The notes under the pieces were generated by a model. That model was not told where the DNA came from and made no database searches. It was given only the letters and a program-made list of their open reading frames with translations. A stretch of DNA of 64,000 nucleotides, taken from the NCBI RefSeq assembly GCF_000381825.1, contig NZ_KB907122.1, forward strand, positions 1 to 64,000, written 5' to 3'. Shown here piece after piece: positions 52,508-56,841 of this stretch (the stretch's first letter is position 1; each line of letters opens with the position of its first letter). A program made the position numbers and the translations under genes. This stretch comes from Thioalkalivibrio sp. ALJT (GTDB lineage Bacteria > Pseudomonadota > Gammaproteobacteria > Ectothiorhodospirales > Ectothiorhodospiraceae).

Positions 52508-53164
52508 TCAGAAGTTCAGCGTATATCCGGCAACCAGGAGGTCCTGCGCATCACTCTCATCGCGGGATGCGTAGGTCAGGGAGAGCGTACCGAAATCAAA
52601 CGTATACGCCGCACCCAGTTCCCAGAAGGTCGCGCTGTCGTCGTCGGCCGGATCGTCATAGCCCACTCCGCCAAAGAGCTCGGTACGCGGGGCAACTTCA
52701 TACTCGGCGCCCAGGAACCACACGCGGCTGCCTTCGGCATCGCGATCGTCGGCATGGAGCACATAGCTGACTTCGGCGAAGACCGGACCCCACTCGGCCC
52801 CGATGAAAATCTCGCCCTCGTCTGCATCATCCAGGCGGGAGAAGTGGAAGTACTCGTACCCGAATTCCATCCCGACCGGCCCGGCGTCGAAGGCATAGCC
52901 GATGAACGGGACCACCTCGATGCCGTTTCCGCTCCCCAGCGTGGAGGCCTCGACACCGGTAAACACGCCACTCTCAAGGTCGAACTCGAAGCCGCCCTGC
53001 AACACCGGGTCGTTGTCGGACTTGGATTCCCCATTGTCGATGTAATCGGTGAACAAGCCGATGTGGAAATCGGCCTCGGCCGCCTGAGCCGCCGGGAAGC
53101 CAAGGGCGAACACACCCGCCACGGCGGTGGTCAGGAGGCTGCGCGGTAATTTTCGATCAGTCAT
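52508..53164 (-). CDS. TorF/Gcw_chp family outer-membrane porin-like protein
   Basis: The 218-residue product has a signal peptide (AGVFALGFPAAQA) and alternating beta strands with acidic loops: ADFHIGLFTDYIDNGESKSDNDPVLQGGFEFD and later ATFWELGAAYTFDFGTLSLTYASRDES, ending in GYTLNF. The terminal Phe is typical of outer-membrane beta-barrels. The family (TIGR02001) is uncharacterised. Acidic loops suggest a preference for cations or adaptation to salt (inference). Its gene lies after mgtE in the same direction, 79 bp away. Confidence 0.85.
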   Translation of the reverse strand: MTDRKLPRSLLTTAVAGVFALGFPAAQAAEADFHIGLFTDYIDNGESKSDNDPVLQGGFEFDLESGVFTGVEASTLGSGNGIEVVPFIGYAFDAGPVGMEFGYEYFHFSRLDDADEGEIFIGAEWGPVFAEVSYVLHADDRDAEGSRVWFLGAEYEVAPRTELFGGVGYDDPADDDSATFWELGAAYTFDFGTLSLTYASRDESDAQDLLVAGYTLNF

Positions 53165-53243
53165 GTCAGTTCCTTTTCTATCAAGATTGGTTTACAGCCG
53201 TGTTGCCGGGGCCGCCCCCGACAACACGATCAAGATTTTCCGT

Positions 53244-54635
53244 TCAACCCGCCGTCGGCATGTGCGCGCTCAGCAGCCAGGCAGCCATCCCGAAGTACAC
53301 GGCCAGGCCGGTGAAATCCTTGATGGTGGTGATGAAGGGGTCGGCACCGGGCGCGTGATCCACGCCGATCTTCAGCAACAACCACGGCAGCAGGAAACCA
53401 AGGAGGGAGGCCGAGAAGACGGAGAAGAACAGCGCAACACCGACCACGATGCCCAGCTGCGGGATGTCGTTCGGCGCACCCTGCCAGAAGTAGGCAATCG
53501 TCCCGGCAAGCACGGCAATGGTGACCCCCATGGCCAGACCCACAGCCGCCTCGCGCACCATGTGGCCGCGGAAGAAGCGATTCAGGTTGATATGTCCCAG
53601 TGCGAGCCCGCGGGCGAAGATCGTGGTCGACTGCGTGCCGACGTTACCGCCCATATCCATCACCAGCGGGATAAAGATGGCCAGCGCCACGACCGCGGCC
53701 AGGGTGTCTTCAAAGAAGTCGATCACGCCACCCACGGCCAGGCCACCAGCCAGGGTCACCATCAGGAAGGCCAGGCGCACCTTGACCGGATAGCCAATCC
53801 CCCCGGAGGTCAGCTTTTCGGAGCGAACGACATCCTTGTGATGCAGCAGATCCCCAATACCCGCCTTCTTGTAGAAGTCTTCCGAGGTGTCTTCCTCAAG
53901 CACGTCCATCGCATCATCGATGCGCAACACGCCCACCAGCAGGCCGTCCGCATCCACCACAGGCAGCCAGGGCAGGTCTGTGCGCTGCAGCAGCCGGGCG
54001 GCCTCCACCTTGTCACCGGTCGGCGTGGTGTAGAAGTCCCCCATCTCGAGGAGTTCACCCACCGGCTGTTCCGGCTCGGCACGGAACAGCCGGCCCAGGC
54101 GCACAAGCCCGCGGTAGTGCTGGTCGCGATCGGTGATCAGCAGCGCCGCCCCGACATCTTCGGGCATCTTGGAGTTGTCGCGCAGCCGTGCAGTGACCTC
54201 ACCAACCGTCTCCTCCGGCGTAACCCAGAAGACCGGGCGGCGCATGAAACGGGCCACGGTGTCCTCGTCCTGACGCCACAGGGCGCGGACCTGGTCACGC
54301 TTGGCGCCCGGGAGGGCGTTCAGGAAATCCTCGGAACGCCCCTTGCCAACGAGATTCAGGGAACGCGCCAGGGTGTAGGCCGGCAGACGCTGGACCAGCT
54401 CACGCGCTGCGGGGGCCGGCATCCGCTCGAGCAGGATGGCCTGCTCTTCGTCGTCCATGGCCAGGAAGATGGCACGACGCTCATTGAAGTCCACGCCTTC
54501 CAGCACGGTCCAGCGCGCAGCCGGTTCCAGTTCAGCGAGACGTTCGGCCGTGATGGCCGGGACTGGGTGTATCAGTTCGGAACGGGCGCGTTCCAGCTCA
54601 CCCGCGTCAATCATTTTCTGGATGATGTCGTTCAT
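53244..54635 (-). CDS. mgtE: magnesium transporter MgtE
   Basis: The 463-residue protein has the full MgtE plan. The N superhelical domain (about 1-125, ARWTVLEGVDFNERRAIFLAM and LLERMPAPAARELVQRLP) precedes a CBS pair (about 130-255, RPVFWVTPEETVGEV and LPVVDADGLLVGVLRIDD). A plug helix follows, then five membrane helices with the pore signature PLVMDMGGNVGTQSTTI; the Asp there lines the selectivity site. It is a magnesium-gated channel that closes when cytosolic magnesium is high. The leader upstream has an ORF and hairpins suggesting added control of expression. Confidence 0.96.
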   Translation of the reverse strand: MNDIIQKMIDAGELERARSELIHPVPAITAERLAELEPAARWTVLEGVDFNERRAIFLAMDDEEQAILLERMPAPAARELVQRLPAYTLARSLNLVGKGRSEDFLNALPGAKRDQVRALWRQDEDTVARFMRRPVFWVTPEETVGEVTARLRDNSKMPEDVGAALLITDRDQHYRGLVRLGRLFRAEPEQPVGELLEMGDFYTTPTGDKVEAARLLQRTDLPWLPVVDADGLLVGVLRIDDAMDVLEEDTSEDFYKKAGIGDLLHHKDVVRSEKLTSGGIGYPVKVRLAFLMVTLAGGLAVGGVIDFFEDTLAAVVALAIFIPLVMDMGGNVGTQSTTIFARGLALGHINLNRFFRGHMVREAAVGLAMGVTIAVLAGTIAYFWQGAPNDIPQLGIVVGVALFFSVFSASLLGFLLPWLLLKIGVDHAPGADPFITTIKDFTGLAVYFGMAAWLLSAHMPTAG

Positions 54636-54686
54636 CAGTAATGCTCCTCGTACGTGTAAGAGTCATACAAAGCACGCAGGGCATTA

Positions 54687-54725
54687 CAAAAAGACAAAAG
54701 AATCCCGTGACCGCTGGCGGCGGTC
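54687..54725 (-). terminator. hairpin and T-rich tract in the mgtE leader (attenuator candidate)
   Basis: On the minus strand GACCGC and GCGGTC form a 6-bp stem (54709-54725, 5-nt loop). After a short spacer there follow CTTTTGTCTTTTT (54687-54700). It lies between the leader ORF and mgtE. The spacer of about seven bases between stem and T tract is longer than in a classical terminator, so it may be Rho-assisted or a pause site. Confidence 0.5.
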
Positions 54726-54727
54726 TT

Positions 54728-54832
54728 TTACAAAACCCCCATCAGCGAGACGAACACACTTTTACTTTTTCCACTGCCCTGCAGTGTTACTTCGGGCCTA
54801 GACCCGGGGTCGTCGTCTTCAGGTGCTGGCAT
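54728..54832 (-). CDS. 34-codon leader ORF upstream of mgtE
   Basis: The ORF begins MPAPEDDDPGSRPEV and ends in SLMGVL, with AGGAGG five bases before the ATG, one of the strongest ribosome binding sites in the window. Its N-terminus is rich in Pro, Asp and Glu, the kind of sequence that destabilises ribosomes at low magnesium, as described for the mgtL leader peptide of enteric bacteria. Its stop lies 3 bp before the hairpin-T tract structure and 93 bp before mgtE. A hairpin CACTGC/GCAGTG lies within the ORF, and GCAGGGCA (54675-54682) can pair with TGCCCTGC (54676-54683 region near mgtE is 54676-54683; the ORF copy is 54775-54782). Function as a sensor is inferred. Confidence 0.55.
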   Translation of the reverse strand: MPAPEDDDPGSRPEVTLQGSGKSKSVFVSLMGVL

Positions 54833-55272
54833 GGCAGCCTCCTGTTCGTTGGCTGGTTAAGAGAAAACGGACACGCGCACAGCAATACGCACCCCGCTCC
54901 ACCGGGGACACGCAGAGCGTTCCCCGATACGGGCAGAGGCGGAATATTATCGAACGGCATGGAGCCGCGCGCCGCGCACAAGGCTGGCGCAGCACGGGGT
55001 GGGGCTGGGGAGGCGCCCGTCGTAACGGGCAGGAAGGGGAAGGAAGGGCTTGTCATCCCCCCCGGAATCACGCATATCGCTGACACCGGGGAGACACCAC
55101 CGAATTACCGGATGGCGGGACCCCGCTGGCAACGATATGCACGCTCGTACCGGCCACCAGCCCTACGCTCATGCATACATCGACAACAGTCCATTGACAT
55201 ACCTCTGCTACTCAAGATGTTCATTAGTTTAGCACCATGTAAGTTTTGTGCAACCCCATAACAGAAAATTCA
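54833..55272. other. intergenic stretch upstream of the mgtE leader
   Basis: About 440 bp with no supported gene between the end of the chemoreceptor gene and the mgtE leader. It should contain the mgtE promoter. I could not recognise an M-box or other known riboswitch by eye. Confidence 0.35.
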
Positions 55273-56841
55273 TCAATTCTTTTGTTCAAAACGCTGGATC
55301 AGGGCTTTCAACTCGACAGCCTCGGCCTGCATGCGTTCACTGGCATCTCGTGCTTGTCCGGATACCGAGCCGGTTTCGCTCGCCACATCGCGGATGGAGG
55401 TCACGTTGCGGTTGATTTCCTCGGACACGGCGCTTTGCTCCTCAACCGCTGTGGCAATCTGCGTGTTCATCTCGGTGATCTGCGCCACGGCCTCCCGGAT
55501 CGTCACCAGCGAATCGCCCGCCGCCCTGGCCTTCTCTACGCCGTCGGCGGCCTGTTCCTGACTGCCCCGCATCGCGGACATCGCTTCCCGTGCTCCACTT
55601 TGCAGGGTCTCGATCATGTTGCGGATGGTCACGGTCGATTCGTCGGTGCGCTGCGACAGCGAACGCACCTCGTCGGCGACCACGGCGAATCCGCGGCCGT
55701 GCTCACCGGCACGCGCCGCCTCGATTGCGGCGTTCAGCGCCAGCAGGTTGGTCTGCTCGGCAATCTCGCGGATCACGCTCAGGATCTTGTCGATCTCGGC
55801 CGTGCTGGCCTCGAGCTTGCCCAGCTTCTCCGCGGTGGCCTCCACCTCGGCCGCCATCCGGTTAATCACGGACACCGTGCCATTGACCACTTCCTGACCG
55901 GCGTCCGTTTCCTTCTCGGCATGATTGGCGGCTTCGGCCGCACGCGCCGAGTTGCTCGCCATCTCATGGATGGTCGAGGTCATTTCGTTCATGGCCGTAG
56001 CCACCTGATCCAGTTCGTTTTGCTGGCGCTCGACACCGGCAGCGGTCTGCTCGACGTTGCTGGCCATCGCCTGGGCGTCGGTACTGACCACCGCGGCCTT
56101 GTCCTGGATACGTCCGAGCACGGTGCGCAGGGTCGCCTGATTGAAGTGCTGGATCATCTCCAGCGAGGCACTGTCATCGCGACGGCCGGTGTAAATCGCT
56201 TCCATCACCGGGTTGTCGAACACGGCCCGGGCCCGCTTGATGGCCTGCCGGATCCCGGATGCGAAGGCCAGCGTGACAGCGCCGCCAACGACAAAGATCA
56301 CCACCATGAGCCCTGCCAGAATCAGCGGCGAAGACACAAGACTGACCGCCGCAAGCGCCAGCAGCAGACTCACCGCCCAGGTGCCCGCAAAGCGCCCCGT
56401 CAGATTGTGATACCAGCGCCGATGAAAACTCCGGCCCTTGTTGAGCGCGGCATAGACCTTCTCCGCGCGCGCCACGTGATCACGCTTCGGGATAGCACGC
56501 ACCGACTCGTAACCGACCTTGCGCCCATCCTCGTACGACGGGGTAACAAAGGCATCCACCCAGTAGTGGTCGCCATCCTTGCGGCGGTTCTTGACGATCC
56601 CGATCCACGGCTGGTCCGACTTCAGGGTTTCCCACATGTTCGCGTAGGCGGCCTCCGGCATGTCCGGGTGGCGCACGATATTGTGGGCAGAGCCTTCGAG
56701 TTCGGACCAATCGAAACCGCTGACTTCCACGAAATCCGCGTTCGCATGCTGAATACGACCCTTTTGATCGGTGGACGAAATCAGGTCGCCGAACCGATCA
56801 ATCGGATACTCCGTCTGCGTCACAGGAAGGTTCTTGCGCAT
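55273..56841 (-). CDS. PAS-domain methyl-accepting chemotaxis protein (Aer-like)
   Basis: The 522-residue protein has an N-terminal PAS domain (about 8-115: [43 protein letters not shown]), two close membrane helices (about 155-205) and a HAMP-like segment. The signalling hairpin has the tip [35 protein letters not shown]. This is the plan of the aerotaxis receptor Aer, which senses redox through FAD in PAS; FAD binding here is possible but not proven. It signals through CheA/CheW to the flagella. AAGGAC precedes the ATG at 56841. Confidence 0.93.

Follow-up and report, generated by a model that had tools for sequence, protein, structure and literature searches.

A candidate Mg2+-sensing leader peptide upstream of mgtE in Thioalkalivibrio and its relatives

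Described Mg2+-responsive leaders and the mgtE leader

Mg2+-sensing leader peptides that destabilize ribosomes have been described for the enterobacterial genes mgtA, mgtB and, weakly, corA, according to the available excerpts of this literature. Acidic residues near the start of the nascent peptide destabilize ribosomes, more so at low Mg2+, an effect reported for mgtL and used by mgtQ (excerpts of PMC8092293, PMC11282234 and PMC11552253). The mgtQ ORF precedes mgtB in Salmonella mgtCBRU; it is short, led by a Shine-Dalgarno sequence (SD), and its eight residues include Asp2 and Glu5. Its local stem, anti-sequestor and sequestor are mutually exclusive (1:2, 2:3, 3:4), its leader is closed when untranslated, and the ribosome-binding site (RBS) of the Mg2+ transporter is released when ribosomes fail early, a logic shown by experiment (excerpts of PMC8092293). 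Meanwhile, mgtL, which precedes mgtA in E. coli and Salmonella, starts with an acidic/proline sequence (EPDP), and ribosome drop-off at low Mg2+ refolds its mRNA (excerpts of PMC11282234 and PMC11552253). It acts on Rho-dependent termination in Salmonella, whereas no evidence of such termination was detected in E. coli (excerpts of PMC11552253). Two further leaders are relevant here. An M-box riboswitch leader of M. tuberculosis is Mg2+-responsive and contains a small upstream ORF (uORF) with a conserved N-terminus (excerpts of PMC12810186). In Thioalkalivibrio itself, the 'mgtE motif' (SRC-65-1) was published in 2024 as a strong riboswitch candidate with no ligand; it has 32 representatives, covariation, and an imperfect P4 stem whose base holds an SD and AUG (excerpts of PMC11109978).

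We analysed the mgtE leader of Thioalkalivibrio sp. ALJT within a window of 64,000 nucleotides (NZ_KB907122.1, positions 1 to 64,000). This leader resembles mgtQ in having a short SD-led ORF with early acidic residues, in the mutual exclusion of a local stem, an anti-sequestor and a sequestor, and, by prediction, in the release of a transporter RBS upon early ribosome failure. The mgtC-mgtB context of mgtQ is absent here: the gene is mgtE, the peptide starts with MPAPEDDDPGSR, and both peptide and RNA appear unrelated to those of mgtQ when read side by side with the excerpted description. MgtB is a P-type ATPase. The uORFs before mgtE are also longer, at 29-41 residues, and carry DD or DE before P. 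With mgtL the leader shares the acidic/proline start and the mRNA refolding, along with a drop-off that here would follow by analogy; the switch predicted here acts at the translation start of mgtE, unlike the Rho-dependent termination excerpted for mgtL. The nearest system in logic is mgtQ and the nearest in peptide is mgtL, and both gene and sequence differ from either. Unlike the M. tuberculosis leader, in which the excerpted report places an M-box aptamer, the window leader contains none that we could find: no Rfam family, M-box (RF00380) included, matched positions 53000-56500 at E values up to 5.

Table 1 Features of the mgtE leader in the window
Feature	Position	Strand	Description
mgtE	53244..54635	-	463 aa; domains MgtE_N, CBS, MgtE
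mgtE start region	54633..54649	-	GAGGAG 54649-54644; GCATTAC 54644-54638, 3' arm of the predicted sequestor; ATG 54635-54633
3' strand of long-range helix	54676..54700	-	T-rich tract (54700-54687) and TGCCCTGC (54683-54676)
TGTAATGCCC, within 3' strand of long-range helix	54688-54679	-	doubles as 5' arm of the predicted SD sequestor
Stem GACCGC-CGCCA-GCGGTC, 3' of uORF stop	54709..54725	-	not a canonical terminator
uORF	54728..54832	-	34 codons, MPAPEDDDPGSRPEVTLQGSGKSKSVFVSLMGVL; acidic/proline N-terminus MPAPEDDDPGSR; proposed ribosome-destabilizing leader peptide
Local hairpin CACTGC-AGG-GCAGTG	54772..54786	-	overlaps anti-sequestor; kept in 8/9 window-type leaders, lost in L049, the most diverged of them
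Anti-sequestor core GCAGGGCA, codons 17-20 of uORF	54775..54782	-	one pair G-C in 7/9, A-U in 2/9 window-type leaders
SD of uORF, AGGAGG	54838..54843	-	5 bases, then ATG; invariant in 9/9 window-type leaders
Conserved structured element further upstream	55045..55215	-	in the same 9/47 family genomes as the window-type leader

The main features of this leader had been predicted from the DNA alone, and we recovered them at the positions of Table 1: the minus-strand uORF of 34 codons with AGGAGG five bases before its ATG, the exact complementarity of GCAGGGCA and TGCCCTGC, and the hairpin CACTGC/GCAGTG, which overlaps GCAGGGCA. Between the uORF stop and the mgtE ATG (54635) lie 92 bases. The stem behind the uORF and the T-rich tract, which had been read as attenuator-like, are also where they were said to be, but they do not form an intrinsic terminator. 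Eight bases separate them, leaving no U-run directly 3' of the GC stem, and a terminator scan listed none between the uORF and mgtE. Its single terminator-like site (54892-54873) precedes the uORF, against an average of 1.0 such sites in shuffled sequences. The T-rich tract is instead explained as a strand of the long-range helix described below. Our scan found no promoter for the mgtE leader.

Conservation of the uORF and of its acidic start

A protein search of 58 genomes returned 13 places in 12 genomes, including the genome of the window, with at least 58% identity to the window MgtE over at least 250 residues. The closest named match, from Thioalkalivibrio sp. ALJ7 (L048), is 97% identical over the whole MgtE. 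The remaining long matches are paralogues at 26-35%, except for a 105-residue piece in G017 at 44%. This mgtE subfamily was found at E ≤ 1e-70 in 15 of 47 genomes of the order, a set identical to that of the family search; with the piece in G017, these make up 16 main copies. All 16 have an SD-led uORF 189-207 nt upstream of mgtE, and two loci from outside the family have one as well, at 177 nt (L058) and 202 nt (L059). We compared 18 leaders: nine of the window type, all from Thioalkalivibrio, and nine distant ones.

The original prediction hinged on the conservation of this ORF among relatives, and an acidic/proline start is present in all 18 leaders, as MP..DDDPGS, MPDDPGP, MPDDPEPE or MPDEPEP. 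The nine window-type peptides start with MPAP[EDV][DN]DDPGS, or with MPQDDDDPGSR in G013, and those of G012, G017, G031 and G036 with MPDDPGP. The uORFs of G060 and G064 (both Ectothiorhodospira) and of G065 have a TTG start preceded by a good SD, with MPDDPEPE or MPDEPEPG as their first residues, while L058 and L059 start with MPDEPEP. A pattern of this motif with an ATG start occurred at 17 places in 16 of the 47 genomes, 13 of which are leaders of mgtE; the matched letters of the other four put them out of frame. A control with the pattern reversed had no match in the 47 genomes. The looser pattern M.{0,5}[DE][DE]P picked out the mgtE uORF and one other among the 160 SD-led short ORFs of the window. 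In 80 named loci it matched 22 of 1322 such ORFs; 15 of these rows (13 loci) are mgtE leaders, two belong to the second leader type treated in the last section, and five are unrelated. No early-acidic uORF was found before paralogous mgtE genes, where 12 SD-led uORFs lie up to 650 nt upstream of 18 paralogous matches.

Selection on the uORF was gauged by pN/pS, calculated as pairwise sums over related sequences and to be read descriptively. The values were 0.037/0.250 at D6-R12 in the nine window-type copies and 0.207/0.161 over the last 21 codons in the seven copies without a frameshift. The distant copies gave a similar picture, with 0.054/0.417 at codons 2-5 and 0.574/0.648 at codons 9-14 (nine copies each). 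By this measure, selection on amino acids is seen only at the acidic/proline start of the uORF. Two of the nine window-type leaders (L052 and L053) carry a one-base deletion right after GGGTCTAG; the motif is intact in both, and the frame, now encoding a new C-terminal peptide, still extends beyond the anti-sequestor. Judging from these substitution patterns, the leader of mgtE carries an SD-led ORF whose acidic residues and proline near the start are under selection as peptide.

Several of the compared loci have further features of their own. An ORF of 108-143 residues that resembles the MgtE N-domain precedes the leader in L010, L011, L012, L043 and L058, and would place the uORF inside an apparent operon, as with mgtQ. 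L130 (G065) has tandem acidic/proline uORFs approximately 569 and 203 nt before mgtE, the first with a TTG start, the sequence MPEDPGPAEPPSSCR and a preceding GAGGAG. G036 contains a second, partial mgtE copy (L139) that lacks the mgtE uORF leader; MDSDSSRS lies approximately 540 nt upstream of it with no clear SD, and a manganese riboswitch on the other strand falls just below threshold (44.0 vs 45 bits). A manganese (yybP-ykoY) riboswitch also lies downstream of mgtE in L058 (5165-5333, 63 bits), and was the single Rfam match at gathering score over 19 whole loci.

Competing RNA folds and the predicted effect of ribosome position

The leader is strongly structured, with a minimum free energy of -88 kcal/mol (z -3.7) that none of 200 shuffled sequences reached. 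Two long-range folds compete within it. In fold A, GCAGGGCA and the A-rich stretch that follows it pair with the T-rich tract and TGCCCTGC. The 8-bp pairing of GCAGGGCA with TGCCCTGC is the core of an interrupted helix of 47 pairs, in which the 3' half of the uORF pairs with the T-rich tract and TGTAATGCCCTGC. Over the nine window-type sequences, 95.4% of the cells of fold A are paired, and the core pairs are kept in all nine. In fold B, which had not been among the pairings originally listed, TGTAATGCCC pairs with GGAGCATTAC across the mgtE SD (22 pairs, 94.4% of cells paired), and the uORF segment GCrGGGCA competes for TGTAATGCCC. The two folds are mutually exclusive because TGCCC is common to both. 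The local hairpin CACTGC/GCAGTG is likewise incompatible with fold A, which contains the GCAGGGCA/TGCCCTGC pairing of the original prediction.

Conservation of the pairing was borne out for the core, but compensatory changes are few. Fold A has double changes in three of its 47 pairs in the window group, namely one G-C/A-U exchange in the core and two others further in, and 59 of 500 shuffles reach that number; fold B has none in its 22 pairs. We rejected compensatory change as decisive evidence because the events are too few. Energies of RNA duplexes between the uORF and the region before the mgtE SD were compared with those of codon-shuffled uORFs: in 15 of the 18 leaders at most 10 of 200 shuffles did as well; the exceptions are L010 (16 of 200), L059 (17) and L012 (26). 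Duplexes between own partners averaged -41.0 kcal/mol vs -38.1 for crossed partners in the window group, and -55.6 vs -50.2 in the distant group. The corresponding sequestor energies were -17.7 vs -17.8 and -18.4 vs -15.9; in the window group, own partners are thus no better than crossed ones. These own and crossed energies carry no significance figure.

The cost of opening the mgtE start was predicted to depend on how far the uORF is covered, with energies that are equilibrium figures and ignore co-transcriptional folding. For the nine window-type leaders, the predicted cost is 4.2-9.9 kcal/mol when cover extends to nt 40 of the uORF and 13.9-18.0 kcal/mol when it spans the whole uORF. The rise on full cover is 6.9-12.8 kcal/mol, and in each of these leaders none of 60 shuffles reaches it. 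Support from the distant leaders is mixed. The predicted rise is clear in four of the nine, at 3.6 kcal/mol in L010 (1/60 shuffles), 5.7 in L128, 6.4 in L129 and 5.0 in L058 (0/60), and marginal in L130, at 1.9 (3/60). It is absent in L011 (0.6, 11/60), L059 (0.6, 21/60) and L012 (-0.6, 34/60), and reversed in L043 (-3.0, 56/60), whose longer ORF ends on the sequestor. An RBS sequestor of the mgtQ type, with a 5' arm for which the uORF competes and a state set by ribosome position, is therefore predicted in all nine window-type leaders, and in the distant ones clearly in four and marginally in one of nine.

A single ribosome footprint of 30 nt was then moved along the uORF in the nine window-type and five of the distant leaders. 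With its leading edge at nt 50, where the local hairpin is blocked, opening of the mgtE start is predicted to cost 3.3-11.5 kcal/mol; at nt 60 the figure is 12.2-17.2 kcal/mol, higher in all nine window-type leaders. A ribosome in the former position decodes approximately codons 11-12, the end of the conserved motif, assuming 15 nt ahead of the P-site. At this position fold A takes over in L051, L054 and L008; in L050 it does so in part, and L052 and L053 keep fold B. Among the distant leaders, the step lies at approximately nt 80-90 in L128 and at nt 50 in L058; L130 shows little of it, and L010 and L059 show no simple step.

The folds of the leaders without a ribosome set a limit on this scheme. 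With the uORF free, or covered as far as nt 40, only three of the nine window-type leaders are dominated by fold A (the window, L048 and L049); in the other six fold B, the closed state, prevails. The untranslated window leader thus prefers its anti-sequestor, in contrast to the closed untranslated mgtQ leader of the excerpted report, and even in this fold its mgtE start is approximately 75% paired. We rejected the idea that drop-off alone opens every leader, since the equilibrium folds fail in those six. The footprint scan leads instead to a position-dependent version of the switch.

Based on these findings, we postulate that the leader of mgtE is probably controlled by a translated uORF of the kind that destabilizes its own ribosomes. 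The acidic run and proline at the uORF start would make ribosomes prone to early pausing and drop-off, particularly at low Mg2+. While positioned on this acidic start, with its leading edge up to approximately nt 50, a ribosome would leave GCAGGGCA free and block the local hairpin. The uORF could then pair with the T-rich/TGCCCTGC strand, removing TGTAATGCCC from the mgtE SD and making mgtE easier to open. When Mg2+ is sufficient, ribosomes would proceed and cover GCAGGGCA, the SD would pair with TGTAATGCCC, and mgtE would be closed. The outcome would be more MgtE when Mg2+ is short. From peptide conservation and folding we infer that the uORF is translated in the cell, that ribosomes drop off it in a Mg2+-dependent manner, and that control runs in this direction. 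Such a switch, acting by hiding or freeing the SD, would be nearer to Salmonella mgtQ than to mgtL. The original prediction had proposed an mgtL-like Mg2+ sensor with an unrelated peptide; the start shared by all 18 leaders and the core pairing kept in the nine window-type ones support this proposal. The switch predicted here, however, lies at the translation start, and no terminator was found between the uORF and mgtE.

Alternative explanations and wider occurrence

The element at 55045-55215 bears on whether an RNA aptamer could do this work. It is conserved at 0.76-0.99 per 20-column block, with six of nine blocks at 0.92 or above, and within the family it shares its nine genomes exactly with the window-type leader, the other 38 having no match. 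It is kept in L049, where the neighbouring gene differs, and we infer that it belongs to the mgtE leader. A second coding ORF within it (MDCC..MHERR...) is not supported, as its pN/pS of 0.071/0.108 differs little from those of the other two frames (0.084/0.079 and 0.072/0.097). This element may form part of the published 'mgtE motif', which is probably the leader RNA analysed here: compared by description, it has the same genus, gene, position before mgtE, and an SD and AUG in a long stem (excerpts of PMC11109978). The original statement that no leader of this type was known before mgtE in these bacteria would then need changing, since the RNA is probably not entirely new. The excerpted description presents a riboswitch candidate and mentions no uORF, and the titles and abstracts listed by searches of open-licence papers named no uORF of this kind before mgtE. 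A metal-binding riboswitch, in which this element or the leader folds bind an ion and the uORF is incidental, would fit the published description, with its 32 representatives, P4 stem and covariation, and the co-occurrence of element and leader. We consider it unlikely, as it would not account for the amino-acid-level purifying selection at the start of the uORF. Nor would it account for the uORF in seven distant family leaders, from genomes in which no match to the element or to the DNA of the window leader was found; the leader also lacks any Rfam match at E values up to 5.

Control might instead be exerted on transcription, with uORF translation exposing or hiding a Rho-dependent terminator. 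This is how mgtL and corL expose Rho sites (excerpts of PMC11282234 and PMC11552253), and by eye the sequence separating the uORF from the upstream element looks C-rich. Such attenuation seems distinctly unlikely here, since the alternative pairings end on the mgtE SD/AUG and no intrinsic terminator was listed between the uORF and mgtE. The uORF might also sense proline codons or charged tRNA-Pro in place of acidic destabilization, as described for the mgtP leader ORF of Salmonella mgtCBR (figure legend in PMC8092293). Prolines are indeed conserved, as P2 and P9 in the window type and within PDDPEPEPPP in Ectothiorhodospira, but the acidic residues are conserved equally and the prolines of the window-type start are all isolated, leaving this reading a low probability. 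That the uORF is a chance ORF in a structured leader, with no regulatory role, would find room in the approximately 90% identity among window-type leaders, which makes conservation alone weak evidence there. We regard it as highly improbable: the same N-terminal motif recurs in distant leaders of otherwise dissimilar sequence, selection is seen at the codon level, and the motif occurs in only five of 1305 other SD-led short ORFs of the named loci.

Related mgtE genes in seven named loci have a second type of leader, with a 26-codon uORF that starts M[ED]DPSSR (ATG GAN GAY CCN AGT AGT CGA) and in several cases has a weak SD. These loci come from Billgrantia/Halomonas (L065, L066, L103 and L108), Alkalilimnicola (L069) and Ectothiorhodospiraceae MAGs (L060 and L079). 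The uORF lies approximately 270-420 nt before the inferred mgtE start, and its AGT AGT CGA codons are invariant. L075, a Nitriliruptoraceae locus of the Actinobacteria, and the Chloroflexi loci L096 and L098 have similar starts. In L075, a MAG, an M-box riboswitch (2390-2577, 109.8 bits) is followed by a GTG-start uORF, MDDSSSRS, at approximately 2730, ahead of mgtE. The MEDPSSR start was rejected as a common element, its exact pattern being found in 0 of 369 class genomes and in 2 of 121 Billgrantia-family genomes, one of them the starting genome. More generally, at least two acidic residues at positions 2-6 were present in 13 of 84 SD-led uORFs before mgtE vs 54 of 1948 at other places in these loci, a comparison that leaves out the 13 loci of the first type, counts one ORF twice and includes several loci that are close relatives. 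A search of another 79 genomes from the class to which L096 (an Anaerolineae MAG) belongs found no mgtE at E ≤ 1e-90, and no consistent leader was seen before the mgtE genes of cyanobacteria; for these reasons we do not claim generality across phyla.

The leader described here looks like a second, independent version of the Mg2+-sensing leader peptides of Salmonella. It is a tentative but serious possibility that mgtE genes of several lineages are under self-aborting acidic uORFs of the MP..DDP and M[ED]DPSSR types, evolved independently or spread; on that view, the 'mgtE motif' would sense Mg2+ through a nascent peptide, and peptides of this kind would serve as general Mg2+ sensors beyond the enterobacteria. 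Little free Mg2+ is available in soda lakes, which would explain a need for control of mgtE. If the proposed control is correct, an orphan riboswitch candidate would gain a concrete function. The same logic would then operate on the unrelated MgtE with unrelated peptides and RNAs, and ribosome stability would have been recruited repeatedly as a gauge of Mg2+.
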